Of a stretch of DNA of 64,000 nt, positions 7,877 to 22,095 are shown piece by piece (the first letter of the stretch is position 1; each line of letters begins with the position of its first letter). This DNA is from Chitinophaga polysaccharea (GTDB lineage: Bacteria; Bacteroidota; Bacteroidia; Chitinophagales; Chitinophagaceae). The notes below the pieces were generated by a model. The model had not been told where the DNA came from. It saw nothing but the letters and a program-made list of their open reading frames with translations, and did not search any database. The position numbers and the translations under genes are program-made. Where the stretch lies: assembly GCF_902150045.1 (NCBI RefSeq), contig NZ_CABFVU010000003.1, positions 744,001 to 808,000 on the forward strand, written 5' to 3'.

Positions 7877-7995
7877 AAAGGGGCTGTATCAAAAGTAATC
7901 TGAAGGTCCTGAGAATTATTGCGTAAACGAAAATTCTTTCCATCAGGTACCCGAATAAAATCGAGTAAAAATCACTTTTGATACAGTCCCTTCTT
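7877..7995. repeat. ~119-bp palindromic repeat element, copy A (MITE-like or bidirectional terminator)
   Basis: Terminal inverted repeats AAAGGGGCTGTATCAAAAGT (7877-7896) and ACTTTTGATACAGTCCCTTC (7974-7993) differ by one substitution and one 1-nt indel. The interior (GAGAAT, ACGAAAATT, GGTACCCGA, TAAAATCG, GTAAAA in that order) is shared with copy B at 18538-18652. It fills the gap between two convergent genes and could serve both as terminator. It is too small to encode a transposase. Confidence 0.7.
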
Positions 7996-8024: not shown

Positions 8025-8594
8025 TTAAAATTCAATGTCGTCTGCTACGTTCCCTCCCTGCTTTTCGGCAAACAGTTGCTGATACTTCGCCTGGTAAGCT
8101 GCCTGCCTTGCATTGTACCCGGCGTAATCAGCCTGGATATCCCGGTGGATCTGGTCATTCCACATAGAAGCTGCCACCTGGAAATCGCCAAGAGGAATCC
8201 CATACTTATCCATGATCCATTGCGCACCATCCAGGCCGTAATCGTAGGCCACCTGCCTGGCTACTTCCAGCTCCTGGTAGAAATCCTTGTCTGCCTTGAT
8301 CTTTTCAATATTGCCCGCGCCTTCTGCAGATGTTTCCGCTTTTAAACCACTGAACTTCGGATGCTGATCCGCCTGGCCAAAATACTGGCCAAAGAGCGTC
8401 ACAATATGAAAAGTAGGATCCTGCTTCATACGTTCAGGCCAAAGCAGGTTAGCCTCCTGCCAAACAGGTAGCTCTACCCCCAGTGCTTTTGCTACATCGT
8501 CTTCACTAAGACCGCTACCCAGTTTTGCACAGGCAGCACTGTAATCTTCTAATGTAATACCATGAATTGGTTCTAATAATGGATTGCCAGACAT
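8025..8594 (-). CDS. hypothetical protein, last gene of the SPFH/zinc-ribbon operon
   Basis: 189 residues, soluble, no signal peptide or membrane segment; family not recognised with certainty. It is rich in Asp, Glu, Ala and Gln, with helical stretches such as FYQELEVARQVAYDYGLDG and a Gln-rich C terminus. Repeated W/D patterns (LPVWQEANLLWPERM; AQWIMDKYGIPLGDF; ASMWNDQI) suggest a helical repeat-like fold. It lies 11 bp downstream of the zinc-ribbon gene on the same strand, so it is probably co-transcribed with the six genes upstream and may act with the SPFH protein. The 3' end faces palindromic element A. Confidence 0.75.
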   Translation of the reverse strand: MSGNPLLEPIHGITLEDYSAACAKLGSGLSEDDVAKALGVELPVWQEANLLWPERMKQDPTFHIVTLFGQYFGQADQHPKFSGLKAETSAEGAGNIEKIKADKDFYQELEVARQVAYDYGLDGAQWIMDKYGIPLGDFQVAASMWNDQIHRDIQADYAGYNARQAAYQAKYQQLFAEKQGGNVADDIEF

Positions 8595-8605: not shown

Positions 8606-9433
8606 TTAAAGATGATTAATGGAGTAGTCACTTAATAATCGTTCGTAAAATTTCTCGTTTTCGCCTGCCATATCGGGTACTATCCTGTTCCACTCATCAA
8701 ACATGGCGCGCAGGTAAAGCCGGTATAATGCGGGGTTTTTAGGCCTGCTTTCCTCGTAGTTCCTGAGTAAGTGGGCAGTGCGCTGTTCTGCCAGGCTACG
8801 TGCCTGGTGCAGTACCATACGCGCCCCGGTAGAAGGGCTGAAAGTGTTCTGCGACTGGCAGAAGGGGCAGGTGATGTAGGTGTCAATAAAAAACATCTTT
8901 GGAATGGTGATATTGCCGCCACACTGCCTGCAGCTGAACTTATCCCTTATCCTTTCAAACGCCGCCAGTTCTTCCCGGTAAGCGCCTTCCAGATCCTGCT
9001 CCCCTGCCGCATTCTTCAACAGTTCAATAGCTTCGTTGATCTTCTCTTCAAAAATAAAATGACGGTTCAGGCAGGCCATCCTGAAAGTATGCAGCTTCCC
9101 GTGATATGCAAGGCCCGCACTGCTGGTAATAGACGGGATCGTTGATTCCGCTTCATACACGAAGGAAATAATATTTTCATCCTTAATTTCATTCGCCTTG
9201 TTCCTCATTTGGTTAACCTGCCCTATGAGCCCCTGCACCATTTGGTGATGCGCCCGTTTATAAGGGTCGGTATCTTCCCGGAAAACCCTTTGCAGTTCAG
9301 GTATTGCAGCGGCGGTCATCTCCTGCATACGGGCTTCCAGTTTATCCAGGAAAGCAAACCATCTCTCCTGTCTTGAACTGATCTCCGCAATTAATGCAGG
9401 GTTTTCATACTTCCTGCCAAATAAACCAAACAT
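8606..9433 (-). CDS. zinc-ribbon-containing cytoplasmic protein
   Basis: 275 residues without signal or membrane segments. The N-terminal half is helical (EISSRQERWFAFLDKLEARM, coiled-coil-like), and a four-Cys zinc ribbon follows at about 167-195 (CRQCGG...CPFCQSQ), then a helical C-terminal tail. It is 2 bp from the smaller zinc-ribbon gene and inside the operon with the YdjI-like SPFH protein. In Bacillus the SPFH protein YdjI works with a zinc-ribbon protein (YdjG) at the membrane, which makes a partner role plausible here, but the sequence itself does not prove homology. Function otherwise unknown. Confidence 0.78.
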   Translation of the reverse strand: MFGLFGRKYENPALIAEISSRQERWFAFLDKLEARMQEMTAAAIPELQRVFREDTDPYKRAHHQMVQGLIGQVNQMRNKANEIKDENIISFVYEAESTIPSITSSAGLAYHGKLHTFRMACLNRHFIFEEKINEAIELLKNAAGEQDLEGAYREELAAFERIRDKFSCRQCGGNITIPKMFFIDTYITCPFCQSQNTFSPSTGARMVLHQARSLAEQRTAHLLRNYEESRPKNPALYRLYLRAMFDEWNRIVPDMAGENEKFYERLLSDYSINHL

Positions 9434-9700: not shown

Positions 9701-10657
9701 TTAAAGTAATTTCAGCAGTTCTTCTTTCTTAGCAGCATACTCCTGCTCTGTGATGAGCTGTGCATCGAAAAGCGCCTTCAGCTGCTTAAGCCGTTCTGTA
9801 ATATCTATAGCCGGAACCGGCTGTTGTTGTTGCATAGTTCCGTTGGTCATCATATTCGTGATCATGCCCATGGTTACCGCCTGCCGCGCACCCTCGCCAA
9901 TATCCGAACGCTCTTTATCCATTGCATTCGCAATGCTGTACTGCGAAAATTTATTCATGTCTGTTACCATGTTCATACCAGTAACCTTATCGTATTGTTT
10001 CAATACATCTTCCGGTAATGTAATACTGGTAATGGTAAAGCGGGTAATCTCCAGGCCAAAATCAGTAAAATAGGGCTGGATCATCGGCTGGATCTTTTCG
10101 TTTAATGCGGAAATATTTCCGGCCGCATCTACTACGGAAATATTTGCAAGTGCCAGCACTTCTGCGAATTTTGGCGCAATAAAATCGCGCAGCTGTAATT
10201 CCAGTTCTATGATATCCAGTCGTGGAAAGGTGCCCGCGTATTCCCTGAAGAACCGCGATACATCCGCTATACGGATATTATAGGTACCGAAAGCCCTTAC
10301 ACGCACCTGTCCAAAGCCCGGATCCTTCATTAACACCGGAGCCGGGGTGCCCCATTTGAGATTAACAAACTGATGGGTGTTGAAAAAATAAATATCCGCT
10401 TTAATGGGGCTTTCAAAACCATATTTCCAGCCTCTAAGCCTGGTAAGGATAGGGATATTTTCGGTGCTCAGCGTGTGCTTTCCGGCCGGGAACACATCGG
10501 CCAGCTGCCCTTCGTTCAGGAAAAGCGCATGCTGGCTTTCCCTGACGGTTAGCACCGCGCCATTCTTAATTTCTTTATCTGCGTCCGAAAACTTCCACAT
10601 CAGGGAATTAGGGTCCGGGGTTACGGACTCAATGATTTCTATAAAAGGTAATCCCAT
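9701..10657 (-). CDS. SPFH/Band-7 domain protein, YdjI-like, with C-terminal SHOCT domain
   Basis: 318 residues. The SPFH fold covers about residues 10-215, including TVRESQHALFLNEGQLADVF and the FPAGKHTLST element characteristic of the YdjI (virion core protein-like) branch, and TITSITLPEDVLKQYDK. A Gln-rich linker (QQQQPVP) leads to a short C-terminal SHOCT motif (LKALFDAQLITEQEYAAKKE). There is no N-terminal membrane anchor, as in YdjI and unlike flotillins. In Bacillus YdjI recruits PspA to damaged membrane together with a zinc-ribbon and a membrane protein; here zinc-ribbon genes follow and three membrane-protein genes precede, but no PspA is in the window. It is the best-defined member of this operon. 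Confidence 0.9.
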   Translation of the reverse strand: MGLPFIEIIESVTPDPNSLMWKFSDADKEIKNGAVLTVRESQHALFLNEGQLADVFPAGKHTLSTENIPILTRLRGWKYGFESPIKADIYFFNTHQFVNLKWGTPAPVLMKDPGFGQVRVRAFGTYNIRIADVSRFFREYAGTFPRLDIIELELQLRDFIAPKFAEVLALANISVVDAAGNISALNEKIQPMIQPYFTDFGLEITRFTITSITLPEDVLKQYDKVTGMNMVTDMNKFSQYSIANAMDKERSDIGEGARQAVTMGMITNMMTNGTMQQQQPVPAIDITERLKQLKALFDAQLITEQEYAAKKEELLKLL

Positions 10658-10667
10658 GCTGCAAGAT

Positions 10668-11186
10668 TTAAATATTGGGCACTTTTGCCGTAACTATCAT
10701 GTCTTCTAAAATTTCCAGTATCTCTGTTTCAAACTGCTCCTGCCGTTTTCGTCCTTTTTTTGTATCCGGGAAATAATCGCTGATGATATAGTTTTTTCCA
10801 AACCTGTTTTTTTTATTGGAGATAACATAACAGAGGTCCCCATTGGTGGTTTCCTGTAGAAAATAAAGCTCCTCAAACGACATGAGTTTCCTTGAATACA
10901 AACCGGGTACCTGCTGGTACACTTCCCGGGTTAACTGGTTAAAGACAAATGTAAGATTCAATTTAAACAAAAAGTCGTACGCCGCGTAAAAAGCACAGAC
11001 ACCTCCTATGCACATCACCAGCCTGGACACCTCGTACGACAGCTTCCATAGCGACGGTACCACAAACGCTGTTGCTGCCAGTATTAAACAAATAATAATC
11101 CTGGCTTTATAAACTTTGTTGGGTTGAAAGCTCACTTGCCCTTCAGTAATTTTTCTGCTGTATAACATCCCCGTAGTTTTAAGCAA
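10668..11186 (-). CDS. hypothetical membrane protein with two N-terminal TM helices
   Basis: 172 residues. Two hydrophobic helices (IIICLILAATAFVVPSLW about 30-47 and LVMCIGGVCAFYAAYDFLF about 56-74) are followed by a soluble region with beta character (TFVFNQLTREVYQQVPGLY, LMSFEELYFLQET). The layout, TM pair plus small PH-like beta domain, is shared with the next gene upstream, so the two may be distant paralogues. Spacing is 4 bp to that gene and 10 bp to the SPFH gene. Family not recognised; probably a membrane anchor of the same complex. Confidence 0.72.
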   Translation of the reverse strand: MLKTTGMLYSRKITEGQVSFQPNKVYKARIIICLILAATAFVVPSLWKLSYEVSRLVMCIGGVCAFYAAYDFLFKLNLTFVFNQLTREVYQQVPGLYSRKLMSFEELYFLQETTNGDLCYVISNKKNRFGKNYIISDYFPDTKKGRKRQEQFETEILEILEDMIVTAKVPNI

Positions 11187-11704: not shown

Positions 11705-12028
11705 TTAATTGATAAAGGCAAATTTATCTTCGAACACTTTGCCTATTACCGGAACTGGTTTTTCTGCCTGGTTAGCGGCGTTAATGATGCCCAGTACCCA
11801 GAAAATGAGGATAACATATCCTACCAGGCCCAGGAAAGATAATGCCGGTACCATATGGGCTATAATGCTCAGGGCAATATTGAGCACAATGCTTACAATG
11901 GCAAGGCCCAGCGATTGTTTCAGGTGGTACCTGAGCAGGCTGTCCGATTTCTCCTTTCCGGAGAAATAAGCGATCAACCATCCGATAAGGGTTACATAAG
12001 ACAAAATAGATAACGTTTTGCTGTTCAT
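11705..12028 (-). CDS. DUF4870-like (Tic20-type) small membrane protein, first gene of the operon
   Basis: 107 residues from the ATG at 12028. Four hydrophobic stretches (LSILSYVTLIGWLIAYF, SLGLAIVSIVLNIALSII, LSFLGLVGYVILIFWVLGI) and the LLRYHLKQSLG motif fit the DUF4870 family. A longer frame begins at 12088, but the predicted -7 box of this operon lies at 12071-12064 on the same strand, so transcription would start after 12088; the ATG at 12028, about 30 nt into the mRNA, is preferred. Four GTAG tetramers upstream form the operator described separately. Family members are of unknown function and common in stress or membrane operons. Confidence 0.85.
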   Translation of the reverse strand: MNSKTLSILSYVTLIGWLIAYFSGKEKSDSLLRYHLKQSLGLAIVSIVLNIALSIIAHMVPALSFLGLVGYVILIFWVLGIINAANQAEKPVPVIGKVFEDKFAFIN

Positions 12029-12063: not shown

Positions 12064-12153
12064 CAAATTTGGAAGGAACAGTTGTCAATCCGGCATCCGT
12101 CTATCCTACAAAATGACTACCCGGGTTAAAAATAGCGTCTACAATATGACTAC
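12064..12153 (-). promoter_or_regulatory. GTAG-array operator and promoter of the SPFH operon
   Basis: On the minus strand four GTAG tetramers (plus-strand CTAC at 12106, 12117, 12139 and 12150) are spaced 11, 22 and 11 bp, giving units GTAGTCATATTGTAG and GTAGTCATTTTGTAG. After 34 bp comes a -7-like box CAAATTTG (12071-12064; 7 of 8 against TAnnTTTG if the first T is relaxed). Tetramer spacing and the 34-bp gap are identical to those at 20966-21055. Helical phasing suggests an activator bound as direct repeats, perhaps LytTR-type. Confidence 0.7.
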
Positions 12154-12257: not shown

Positions 12258-14123
12258 ATGAAATCAATACCATATCTGCCATTTGTTTGTATACTTGTTT
12301 GTATGTGCGGATGGTTCTCGAAGGCATCTGCACAAATTTCGCTGGCCGACAGCCTGCAATCCGTAATAGCCGATCCGGCATTTAATGAGAAGGAGAAACC
12401 AGCCCTCCTTAACCAGTTGGCCGAGATATACCGGGCGGGTAAAAACTATCCCCTTGCCGGGGCGGCAGCCAGGCAAAGCGCCACCATATCCTTAAAATAC
12501 CAGGACTACAGGGAAGCCACCAAGGCTTATACCATGCTGGCAAATATCAGATTCAACCTGCAACAGTATGCTGATCTGAAAAAAGCAGTGGATTCCGTTT
12601 TTACCATAGCGCAAACAGTACCCGACCCCATCGCCATGGCCTATGCCTGTTATTCGAAAGTACTGTTATACAAAACCCTGGATAATTCAGACGATATGGT
12701 GAAATACTGTCAGCTGGGCCTCCGGCAACTGGACAAGGAGCCCGATCCCTACATCGCCGCTAAAATATTATACCAGCTTTATGTAGTGTATTCAGGCTGG
12801 AATAACGAGGAAAAGGTAGATGTATATGCCAGGGCAGCCACCGAAAATGCACTGAAGACCCATGATTACAACCTCCTGAGCAATTGTTATACGGCCTTGT
12901 CGGTAGCGCATGAGTATAAATACAATGCCACCAGGAACAAACAGGAACTGGACAGCGTGATGTTTTACCTGAACAAACCGGTGGCATTGTACCATCAGTA
13001 CCCTGGCAGGGTGGCCAATAACACCTACGCCATTGCCTGTATAAATATTGCCAACACCTACCTGAAATATTTCCCCTCCGACGACCCGGGAGCAAAAGCC
13101 CAGGCTATCCATTATGCCGGTGCTGCACGATCTGTGCTGAAAAATGCCGGTAACAGTGAAGATGTATTTGCCAGCAGCCTGGGTATACTAAGCGAATTTG
13201 CCAAACGGGAAGGCAATACGGCCCAGGCAGAAAGCTACCTGCAGGAAGCATATGAAGTGATAAAAGCAGCCGATCCCGCATACTATTACACGCTGATCAA
13301 CGTGGTGCAGTCGCTGTCAGCCTTCTACGAGCAAAGGGGAAACTACCATAAAGCCCTGGAATACCAGAAAGAAGCAACCCTCTACAACAACAAGATCTTT
13401 AACCAGCAACAGGCGCTCAATACCCAGAAGCTGGAAATACAATACGAAACAGAGAAGAAAAACAACGAAATGCAGATCCTGAAAGAAAAGGAAAAAAGCC
13501 GCACCATGCAGAATTATCTGTATGCCTGCATTGCCATAGCCTCTTTCCTCGGGCTGGTATTCATGTTCCGCTCCTACCACTTCAGGTTGCGCCTTTCATT
13601 ACAGCGGGAAAAACAGCTACAACTGGAAAAACACGAGTCGGAAATGCAGGTGCGGCTGGAAAAGGAAGAACATGCCAGGCTCCGGGCAGAACAGCAGCTG
13701 CTGGCCACCCAACAACAACAGCTGAAAAAAGAAGTAATGGCCAATGTGCTGCAACTGGAACATAAAAATCAAACCCTGCAAAGCATACGGAACAAGCTCA
13801 CGGAAGGCGACGCCATCAATATGCAAAAGATCCTGAAAGAACAGATGGTGATCGACAGCGATTTTGAACATGCAAAGCTGCAAATCCAGCAGGTACATCC
13901 CGATTTTTTTAACCTTATCAACAACAAAGCCCAAAGAAAGCTCACCTTACTCGATCTGAAACTCTGCGCCTACCTTTATCTTAAGATGGATACCCGCCAG
14001 ATTGCCCAGCTGATGAACATTGAAGCAAAAAGTGTGAGAATGAGCCGTTATCGGATCAAACAGAAGCTGGGACTGGATAAAGATGATGATCTCAACGGAT
14101 TCCTGCAGGGGCTGGGGAATTAA
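12258..14123 (+). CDS. TPR-repeat membrane regulator with C-terminal helix-turn-helix
   Basis: 621 residues. Signal peptide (PFVCILVCMCGWFSKASAQ), a periplasmic array of tetratricopeptide-like repeats (about 25-390; e.g. EKPALLNQLAEIYRAGKNY, LSAFYEQRGNYHKALEYQ), one transmembrane helix (LYACIAIASFLGLVFMF, about 417-433), a long Gln/Glu-rich cytoplasmic coiled coil (about 440-530) and a LuxR/SpoIIIE-like HTH at the C terminus (LTLLDLKLCAYLYLKMDTRQ, then IAQLMNIEAKSVRMSRYRIK). This one-component layout, periplasmic TPR sensor joined to a cytoplasmic DNA-binding domain, is common in Bacteroidota. It is divergent from the SPFH operon, so it is a candidate but unproven regulator of that operon. 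Confidence 0.9.
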   Translation: MKSIPYLPFVCILVCMCGWFSKASAQISLADSLQSVIADPAFNEKEKPALLNQLAEIYRAGKNYPLAGAAARQSATISLKYQDYREATKAYTMLANIRFNLQQYADLKKAVDSVFTIAQTVPDPIAMAYACYSKVLLYKTLDNSDDMVKYCQLGLRQLDKEPDPYIAAKILYQLYVVYSGWNNEEKVDVYARAATENALKTHDYNLLSNCYTALSVAHEYKYNATRNKQELDSVMFYLNKPVALYHQYPGRVANNTYAIACINIANTYLKYFPSDDPGAKAQAIHYAGAARSVLKNAGNSEDVFASSLGILSEFAKREGNTAQAESYLQEAYEVIKAADPAYYYTLINVVQSLSAFYEQRGNYHKALEYQKEATLYNNKIFNQQQALNTQKLEIQYETEKKNNEMQILKEKEKSRTMQNYLYACIAIASFLGLVFMFRSYHFRLRLSLQREKQLQLEKHESEMQVRLEKEEHARLRAEQQLLATQQQQLKKEVMANVLQLEHKNQTLQSIRNKLTEGDAINMQKILKEQMVIDSDFEHAKLQIQQVHPDFFNLINNKAQRKLTLLDLKLCAYLYLKMDTRQIAQLMNIEAKSVRMSRYRIKQKLGLDKDDDLNGFLQGLGN

Positions 14124-20965: not shown

Positions 20966-21055
20966 GTAGACATTTTGTAGTCGCCTCAAACACGAATTGT
21001 AGTAACACTGTAGTCACCCGGAAATGTGAAGCCCCACGCCGGCCGCGTATCTTTG
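20966..21055 (+). promoter_or_regulatory. GTAG-array operator and promoter of the YWKNG-repeat gene
   Basis: Plus-strand GTAG at 20966, 20977, 20999 and 21010 (spacing 11, 22, 11), with units GTAGACATTTTGTAG and GTAGTAACACTGTAG. After exactly 34 bp there is a perfect -7 box TATCTTTG (21048-21055), 63 bp before the ATG at 21118. The same layout is found on the other strand at 12153-12064, so the two promoters likely answer to one regulator. Confidence 0.72.
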
Positions 21056-21117: not shown

Positions 21118-22095
21118 ATGATCAGGAAAATTAAACGATTCACGGGCCCGTTGTTACTATTACTGGCTGCCACCTCCATGCTCCGGGCCCAGTCTGCACC
21201 CTCGTTGCTCTTTGTGTACGACGACTATTCTGGTACAGAAACGGGCCTCACCTACTACAGAAATGGTGAAATGCTCCGGCTCACAGATGGTAAAACCTAT
21301 GCGGGGGCATCGGCTATTACTATATCCGGTAATGACGAGTATGTGGCAGGGTATCAAAACAACGCTGCGGGCGAGCCCGTTGCCACCTATTGGAAAAACG
21401 GGCAGGCAATAACCCTCACCAACGGGGAAACCTATGCAAAGGCAGTAGGCATAAGTGTATCCGGCCAGGATGTACATGTGATTGGAAACGACGGGAAGCT
21501 GGCCATGTACTGGAAAAATGGAAAGGCTGCCTCTTTTGGGGAAGACACAAAATTATCCGCCATTTCCATCAGCGGAAACGATGTTTATATAGCCGGTTAC
21601 CGGCCCAATGAGGAAGGGGAATATGTAGCCACCTGTTGGAAGAATGGGGTGCCCCAGGCACTGACTGATGGTAAGAGAAGCGCAGAAGCTGCTTCTATTG
21701 CCATATCCGGAAATGATATTTACGTGGCGGGGTTTGAAGTGAATACGGAGGGAAAAGAAACAGCCATGTATTGGAAAAACGGTACACCGGTTATTCTTAA
21801 GGAAGGCTGCAGGGCAAACGCGATTGCCATATCCGGCAACGAGGTACATGTGGCGGGCATTGACAGGAACGAGGCAGGCGCCAATATTGTTGTACACTGG
21901 AAAAATGGCGTTGCTGCGCGCCTTACCAGTGGCGGGGAAACAGCTGGCGCCGGGGTCAAAACCATTGCTATTGCAGGGAATGATGTTTACCTGGCCGGTT
22001 ATCTTGATGGTAAAGCCACCTATTGGAAAAATGGTAAACCGGTAAATCTGAAAGATATAGTGGGGGGAATAAACGGGATGGCTGTTAAACCATAA
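21118..22095 (+). CDS. secreted YWKNG-repeat protein
   Basis: 325 residues. A signal peptide (LLLLLAATSMLRAQS) is followed by about seven imperfect repeats of 40-45 residues. Each has the pattern V-A-(T/M)-Y-W-K-N-G, a short turn, then L-T-D-G or similar, and I-x-I-S-G-N-D-V-Y-V-A-G (e.g. ATYWKNGQAITLTNGETYA, ISGNDVYVAGFEVNTEG). Such beta-rich repeats would fit a propeller or solenoid exported to periplasm or outside. No enzyme motif, lipobox or T9SS C-terminal domain was seen. The gene is monocistronic, with its own GTAG-type promoter and a strong terminator. No named family is assigned; proteins with comparable repeats occur in Bacteroidota without known role. Confidence 0.85.
   Translation: MIRKIKRFTGPLLLLLAATSMLRAQSAPSLLFVYDDYSGTETGLTYYRNGEMLRLTDGKTYAGASAITISGNDEYVAGYQNNAAGEPVATYWKNGQAITLTNGETYAKAVGISVSGQDVHVIGNDGKLAMYWKNGKAASFGEDTKLSAISISGNDVYIAGYRPNEEGEYVATCWKNGVPQALTDGKRSAEAASIAISGNDIYVAGFEVNTEGKETAMYWKNGTPVILKEGCRANAIAISGNEVHVAGIDRNEAGANIVVHWKNGVAARLTSGGETAGAGVKTIAIAGNDVYLAGYLDGKATYWKNGKPVNLKDIVGGINGMAVKP

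Follow-up and report, generated by a model that had tools for sequence, protein, structure and literature searches.

An array of four GTAG boxes stands twice in the window, the 64,000-nucleotide stretch of Chitinophaga polysaccharea DNA that was analysed here, each time at a fixed distance upstream of a promoter. The array, its spacing and its conservation, as well as its linkage to and co-occurrence with the gene for a TPR/HTH regulator, are observed in the genus and beyond. Very probably, the array is the operator of this protein, a membrane-tethered one-component activator that would control a seven-gene SPFH operon and the gene at 21118. Coordinates of all features are collected in Table 1.

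Table 1. Features of the window that bear on the GTAG arrays, the putative regulator and its candidate targets.
Feature	Position	Strand	Basis or remark
TPR/HTH regulator, 621 aa	12258..14123	+	hydropathy, AlphaFold, Pfam, fold search
Array 1 (12106-12153), four GTAG boxes	12153-12150, 12142-12139, 12120-12117, 12109-12106	-	sequence; GTAG starts 12153, 12142, 12120, 12109; exact array recurs in genus
-7 box CAAATTTG of array 1, TAnnTTTG type	12064..12071	-	34 bp past array 1; predicted transcription start ~12059
Array 2	20966..21013	+	GTAG at 20966, 20977, 20999, 21010; spacing identical to array 1
-7 box TATCTTTG of array 2	21048..21055	+	starts 34 bp past array 2; predicted transcription start ~21060
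Gene 1, DUF4870-like small membrane protein, 107 aa	11705..12028	-	ATG 12028
Membrane protein, 153 aa	11191..11652	-	sequence; 2 TM-like segments
Membrane protein, 172 aa from mechanical TTG start	10668..11186	-	sequence; 2 TM-like segments
SPFH/Band_7_1 protein with SHOCT-like tail	9701..10657	-	Pfam Band_7_1 258 bits
Zinc-ribbon-like protein, 81 aa	9436..9681	-	sequence; two CxxC
275-aa protein, internal CxxC..CxxC motif	8606..9433	-	sequence
DUF6620 protein, last operon gene	8025..8594	-	Pfam PF20325 57.7 bits, cut-off 27
Secreted-looking protein with YWKNG-type repeats	21118..22095	+	behind array 2; second candidate regulon member

The preliminary description had reported four GTAG boxes spaced 11-22-11 bp with a -7-like box 34 bp further on, and a second promoter with the same tetramer spacing and the same gap; both are exact in the sequence. 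The -7 box CAAATTTG at 12071-12064 matches five of the six fixed positions of TAnnTTTG, and TATCTTTG matches all six. Sigma-A promoters of Bacteroidota have a -33 TTTG box, and TTTG is absent 20 bp upstream of the -7 box at both window promoters. In F. psychrophilum, TAnnTTTG occupies -12 to -5 relative to the start, as given in the promoter passages of one study (PMC9723704), and the predicted position of the arrays is about -47 to -94, counted from the transcription start. The unit GTAG(T/A)CAT(A/T)TTGTAG proposed earlier fits three of the four 15-bp units, but the fourth (20999-21013), GTAGTAACACTGTAG, departs from it. The codon at 12088, described before as an ATG, is TTG. The first gene was proposed to begin at 12028, where an ATG opens a 107-aa frame, and this is the likelier gene start because the -7 box puts the start of transcription at about 12059.

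With up to three mismatches allowed, the four-box pattern was found twice in the window, against 0.11 matches expected by chance. The whole 7.62 Mb genome contains arrays 1 and 2 as its two exact matches, none with one mismatch and two with two mismatches. The reversed control gave no match at up to one mismatch and 12 at up to two, so that matches with two mismatches carry no meaning. A search with a tolerant gap and a required -7 box again returned arrays 1 and 2 and nothing else. The exact 15-bp unit has three copies in the genome, all inside the two arrays; the degenerate single unit at up to two mismatches is useless as a genome-wide marker, with 45 matches versus 113 in the control. The earlier statement that there is no third copy therefore holds for this genome, which has two only, but not for its relatives, which carry many.

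We searched 79 genomes of the genus, this one included, and found the exact array, in the form with a T preceding boxes 2 and 4, in 36. G049 and G071 contain plain 11-bp tandem repeats only and were set aside, leaving 34 array genomes. The locus set comprised 62 loci: 52 exact arrays (the two of this genome and 50 others) and ten more. Those 50 are all the arrays judged by eye not to be tandem repeats, which left out G049, G071 and all G004 matches but one. The ten additions, five of them with one mismatch (L107, L112-L115), were chosen by eye from the matches listed, among which other repeat-like or chance-like ones were passed over; L112 and L113 look like chance matches and were kept, L112 being without a -7 box at 33-35 bp. 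Across the 62 aligned loci, the distance from array to -7 box is 34 bp in 55 cases, 35 bp in four, and 33, 32 and 47 bp in one each, and it is 34 bp for 47 of the 52 exact arrays. The genus consensus over these loci reads GTAG(A/T)CG(C/T)(T/A)TTGTAG(A/T)CGC, about 14 variable bases, GTAG-N6-TGTAG, and column counts reveal a weak TTTG-like element about 20 bp upstream of the -7 box.

Some Chitinophaga genomes also carry 11-bp tandem repeats with GTAG at several places, such as the GTAGACCCGGT repeats of G004. Repeats of this kind fit the array pattern in G004, G010, G036, G038, G049 and G071, among others, and occur at loci including L044, L009, L028 and L030. They look unrelated to the promoter arrays, and we treated them as a separate phenomenon of some relatives and not as a source of the arrays.

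Clustering of neighbouring proteins by BLAST showed that the family of the TPR/HTH protein encoded at 12258-14123 is present at 38 of the 62 loci, more than any other family. At 30 of these the gene is divergent from the array, and at eight it lies convergent beyond the target gene. In the divergent loci the regulator's mechanical start codon is 27-105 bp from the array; in the window, array 1 begins 104 bp from it. For 34 of the 52 exact arrays, the two of this genome included, a TPR/HTH gene lies no further than about 5 kb away; for the remaining 18, where none does, action in trans is assumed. By the same clustering alone, no family besides TPR/HTH and its targets recurs at more than 13 of the 62 loci. 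Two arrangements stand out at single loci: in G066 two tandem TPR/HTH copies adjoin one array (L094), and in G037 the gene adjacent to an intact array is split into two open frames by a stop codon (L079).

Presence of the array also follows presence of the gene. All 34 array genomes encode a TPR/HTH protein at E <= 1e-40, and the array was found in none of the 26 genomes scored as lacking the gene (Fisher 5e-9, a value that is too small because related species are not independent). The homolog search behind these counts missed at least L071 and L114, both located at arrays, and G033 was wrongly scored as lacking the gene because its L114 was missed. Every genome with a homolog of at least 40% identity has the array (28 of 28), while 19 of the 53 genomes with a TPR/HTH gene have no exact array, several of them carrying pairs with another gap. 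Our genome contains one full-length copy; seven other matches share parts only.

Starting from the protein, we identified 89 distinct genus homologs of at least 560 aa, 71 of which carry a GTAG-N7-GTAG pair in the stretch that runs from 350 bp upstream to 60 bp into the gene. Subtracting two that were known only via arrays leaves 69 of 87, against a background of 0.106 pairs per kb; the other 18 have no such pair. Homologs without an exact array often show a gap of 21 or 23 between the pairs.

The association extends beyond the genus. Among 394 genomes of the family search, ten of them Chitinophaga, the gapped pattern with a -7 box occurred in 14 genomes from eight genera, seven besides Chitinophaga, and the reversed control gave none. 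At ten of the eleven arrays outside the genus, a TPR/HTH gene is no more than about 1.5 kb away; the exception, L210, belongs to a genome with two arrays, the other of which does have one nearby. An alignment search of named Bacteroidota genomes yielded 285 loci with homologs, of which we used the best 80; they include Chitinophaga, Pedobacter, Mucilaginibacter, Chryseobacterium, Flavobacterium, Sphingobacterium, Elizabethkingia, Taibaiella, Dyadobacter, Tannerella, Myroides and others. Fifteen Chitinophaga loci and L250, apparently from G070, overlap the genus set. In these best 80 of 285, a divergent GTAG-N7-GTAG pair is present at 77 and a full array at 50. Two of the exceptions, L232 and L237, have no upstream part because they start within about 100 bases of a sequence end, and the third, L280 from Dyadobacter, is a true miss without a pair. 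Outside Chitinophaga, 62 of 65 loci have the pair, with L250 counted among the 65.

The spacing within a pair is rigid. In the best 80 of 285 loci, GTAG boxes follow each other at a start-to-start distance of 11 bp in 127 cases, of 12 bp in one and of 10 bp in none, so that the boxes do not drift freely between relatives. Distances of 21, 22 and 23 bp occur 17, 30 and nine times. The fixed 11 bp and the varying 21-23 bp together suggest that the pair is the unit and that the link between pairs is slightly flexible. TTTG stands at the position of the -33 box in eight of 30 phylum loci. These data support the view of the preliminary description that direct-repeat boxes ahead of a promoter point to an activator: the two boxes of a pair keep a distance of 11 bp and their position relative to the promoter is fixed, a layout that an activator would require.

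The protein encoded next to array 1 has features of a transmembrane regulator. In its AlphaFold model (35 sequences, mean pLDDT 82.9), a signal-like helix is followed by a TPR superhelix at residues 29-359 and a long helix at 363-489 that includes a hydrophobic segment (~419-441); a linker that is poorly defined leads to a helical domain at the C-terminus. Hydropathy likewise indicates a signal-like N-terminus and one membrane segment at the same place. Model and hydropathy fit a periplasmic sensor, a membrane segment and a C-terminal HTH, although this topology is a prediction. The TPR part resembles many TPR proteins in the Foldseek listing, among them the peptide sensors NprR and Rap, and this likeness suggests that it may receive a peptide signal.

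Because the Foldseek search with the full model listed TPR proteins, the LuxR/NarL-like HTH (residues 532-618) was modelled alone, reaching a pLDDT of 93.1. Its fold matches DosR, RcsB, LiaR, VraR, NarL and GerE, with a best Z of 8.8 (rmsd 2.7 over 65 residues), which is modest for a helical domain. All 50 fold matches listed are of LuxR/NarL type by description, as are nearly all of the 50 listed by Foldseek, where the best E was 0.042. Sequence matches of the HTH are weak and point to the same family: the Pfam GerE score is 18.6 bits against a cut-off of 23.5, and two relatives score 19.8 and 20.8. The recognition-helix residues K, S, R, M, Y, R, K and K are invariant in 34 sequences. Pfam detected no ATPase domain in the protein, and no receiver domain was found.

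These data make the TPR/HTH protein, which had already been named as a candidate binder, the likely ligand of the array, given their linkage in the genus and the phylum and their co-occurrence in the genus. A fixed neighbour need not be the binder, however, and binding by the TPR/HTH protein is itself a prediction. Another regulator, for example a response regulator of the OmpR/PhoB family, might bind the array, with the TPR/HTH protein acting as its sensor or signalling partner at the locus. Direct repeats of 11 bp are typical of OmpR/PhoB boxes, which counts in favour of such a factor, and the box distances in the best 80 of 285 loci (127 at 11, none at 10, one at 12) follow that rule. Yet Crp-like, AraC-like, GntR-like and sigma-like families, assigned by eye, each occur near at most six of the 62 loci, compared with 38 for TPR/HTH; the TPR/HTH gene is present in all 34 array genomes; and its product itself contains an HTH, whose recognition helix is nearly invariant. 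We therefore consider a separate binder unlikely.

If the TPR/HTH protein is the binder, as we prefer, its mode of action would be as follows. A periplasmic TPR superhelix, which probably senses something outside the inner membrane, would be connected by a single membrane segment to a long cytoplasmic helix and the LuxR/NarL-like HTH. Each GTAG-N7-GTAG pair, with its 11 bp corresponding to about one helical turn, would take one head-to-tail pair of HTH domains, and the four-box array would consist of two of these box pairs, with a gap of 21-23 bp from box 2 to box 3. Located just upstream of a promoter that in this genome has a good -7 box and a poor -33 box, the bound protein may help RNA polymerase to start, switching on the seven-gene DUF4870-like/SPFH operon and, via array 2, the secreted-looking protein. 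The fixed phasing to the -7 box and the position upstream of a poor -33 element fit activation, and we infer an activating role from them.

The same operator could instead serve repression by the TPR/HTH protein, or act mainly on the regulator's own divergent promoter, as the location of array 1 between two divergent genes, 104 bp from the regulator's mechanical start codon, would allow. This is rather improbable: at the 30 genus loci with a divergent regulator the array is oriented away from it, at eight loci the regulator is convergent beyond the target, and no GTAG spacing occurs more than twice on the other strand upstream of the best 80 of 285 phylum homologs. In addition, the boxes lie upstream of the promoter, the usual place of an activator.

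The preliminary description had suggested that the activator was perhaps of LytTR type, an idea that found no support. LytTR proteins recognize two ~9-bp boxes 21-22 bp apart, a distance similar to the 22 bp from box 2 to box 3, and the genome encodes 27 LytTR domains. None of them lies inside the 64-kb window, although a LytTR regulator might also act from elsewhere in the genome; TPR/HTH genes are found near 38 of 62 loci, and the peak of GTAG distances at 11 bp within the pairs is not predicted by the LytTR rule, even though 21, 22 or 23 bp also occur between boxes 2 and 3; a LytTR regulator is thus highly improbable as the binder. That the boxes are a chance or repeat-derived pattern is practically negligible despite the GTAG-bearing 11-bp tandem repeats of some relatives that fit it, considering the expectation in the window, the restriction of matches at up to one mismatch to arrays 1 and 2 in this genome, the lack of control matches to the gapped pattern with a -7 box in 394 genomes, and the fact that the linked arrays, which have a -7 box at 34 bp, do not consist of one repeated 11-mer.

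The seven genes behind array 1 form an operon, as proposed before: they run from 12028 to 8025 on one strand with gaps of 52, 4, 10, 19, 2 and 11 bp. The first is only DUF4870-like, with 19.8 bits against a Pfam cut-off of 25, and the SHOCT score of the SPFH protein, 26.7 bits, is slightly under the cut-off of 27. For the 81-aa protein, NCBIfam gave weak sub-cut-off matches alone, several of them to zinc-ribbon proteins; the 275-aa protein has no Pfam match at E 0.001, and the protein of gene 21118 has only short, spurious-looking ones. We dismissed an assignment to defence or phage families, as nine proteins gave no match to PADLOC defence families and the PHROGs matches were to families without a useful name only. 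Just past the operon, at 7878-7992, lies a 115-bp element with 22-bp inverted ends that are 91% complementary. It looks like a MITE-type element because similar inverted ends, 108 bp apart, are found three more times in the genome, for instance at C1:2877652-2877759.

Relatives of the operon genes accompany the regulator in the phylum. Among the best 80 of 285 loci, a DUF4870-like gene is found on the divergent side at 67, and relatives of the 153-aa and 172-aa proteins at 24 and 29, respectively. The SPFH gene can also stand first behind an array of its own with the regulator not within 5 kb (L058, L080, L087, L097 and L115), and the SPFH module has an array but no regulator within 5 kb in G014, G039, G058 and G067, for example. 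We examined 30 loci from a longer list of SPFH orthologs, reading 1.5 kb at each. A clear array was present at 11 (G000, G020, G014, G039, G058, G003, G067, G032, G066, G065 and G040), two of them with 15 of 16 box letters. At 18 there was no array in the 1.5 kb read; seven of these are in genomes with a close regulator, seven in genomes with a distant one, and four in genomes scored without one, including the misscored G033. The ortholog of G030 has an array with a 21-bp gap that the 1.5 kb read cuts off.

Gene 21118 has 14 close orthologs (>400 bits), and each of their genomes encodes a close regulator. An array-like element lies upstream of 11 of them, nine with 16 of 16 box letters and one with 15, and in that of G075 the spacing from box 2 to box 3 is 12 bp rather than 22. 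The orthologs in G069, G020 and G067 have no array.

Several known regulators share parts of this architecture. MalT of E. coli combines a TPR-type sensor with a LuxR-type HTH and binds repeated asymmetric boxes, and it is a soluble STAND ATPase. By contrast, the N-terminus of the TPR/HTH protein is signal-like, a membrane segment is predicted in it, and Pfam shows no ATPase domain. The DosR, RcsB, LiaR, VraR and GerE domains of the NarL/FixJ-LuxR group have the HTH fold in common with it (best Z 8.8), but the TPR/HTH protein is without a receiver domain, is predicted to be membrane-tethered, and stays below the GerE cut-off, with a Foldseek E of 0.042.

SusR is located at the inner membrane. 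According to the sections on this regulator in PMC3878776, its periplasmic ligand is maltose, a putative HTH is located towards its C-terminus, and its targets are starch genes; its predicted operators are direct repeats on one helix face, with two sites 67 or 77 bp apart. The SusR-like regulators of Bacteroides would resemble the TPR/HTH protein, with its predicted topology, in a one-component design, periplasmic sensing, a C-terminal HTH and a direct-repeat operator. Here, however, the operator has four boxes at 11-22-11 bp in place of two distant sites, sensing would fall to a TPR superhelix, and the main target is an operon of membrane proteins. One study describes BT_3442 as a TPR protein with several domains whose gene cluster also contains a MACPF gene; its passages on this protein mention no operator (PMC2954219). 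The BT3442 family (NF053779 in NCBIfam) can be aligned with residues 332-607 of the TPR/HTH protein at 50.4 bits, far under its cut-off of 940, and the protein falls outside the family by that measure. At the level of titles and abstracts, a literature search of limited coverage returned no binding site for a protein with this TPR-membrane-HTH layout. The four-box operator and the TPR sensor set the TPR/HTH system apart from both SusR-like regulators and MalT.

A wider interpretation, which we put forward tentatively and hold to be somewhat less probable than not, is that the arrays belong to an undescribed, phylum-wide pathway of envelope signalling. In such a pathway the periplasmic TPR part would sense a peptide or envelope damage and, by way of the single membrane segment, bring four LuxR-like HTH domains into place on an array held at the membrane. 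These would switch on membrane-maintenance operons of the DUF4870-like and SPFH types, a very small regulon with a few promoters per genome.

Proteins with the TPR-membrane-HTH layout occur in many genera of Bacteroidota, and one such family is now linked to an exactly defined operator, a promoter arrangement that stays fixed and a small set of targets in Chitinophaga, Pedobacter, Mucilaginibacter, Chryseobacterium, Sphingobacterium, Elizabethkingia and others. The SPFH/DUF4870-like operon gains a candidate regulator, and the binder, the regulon and the signal become directly testable.
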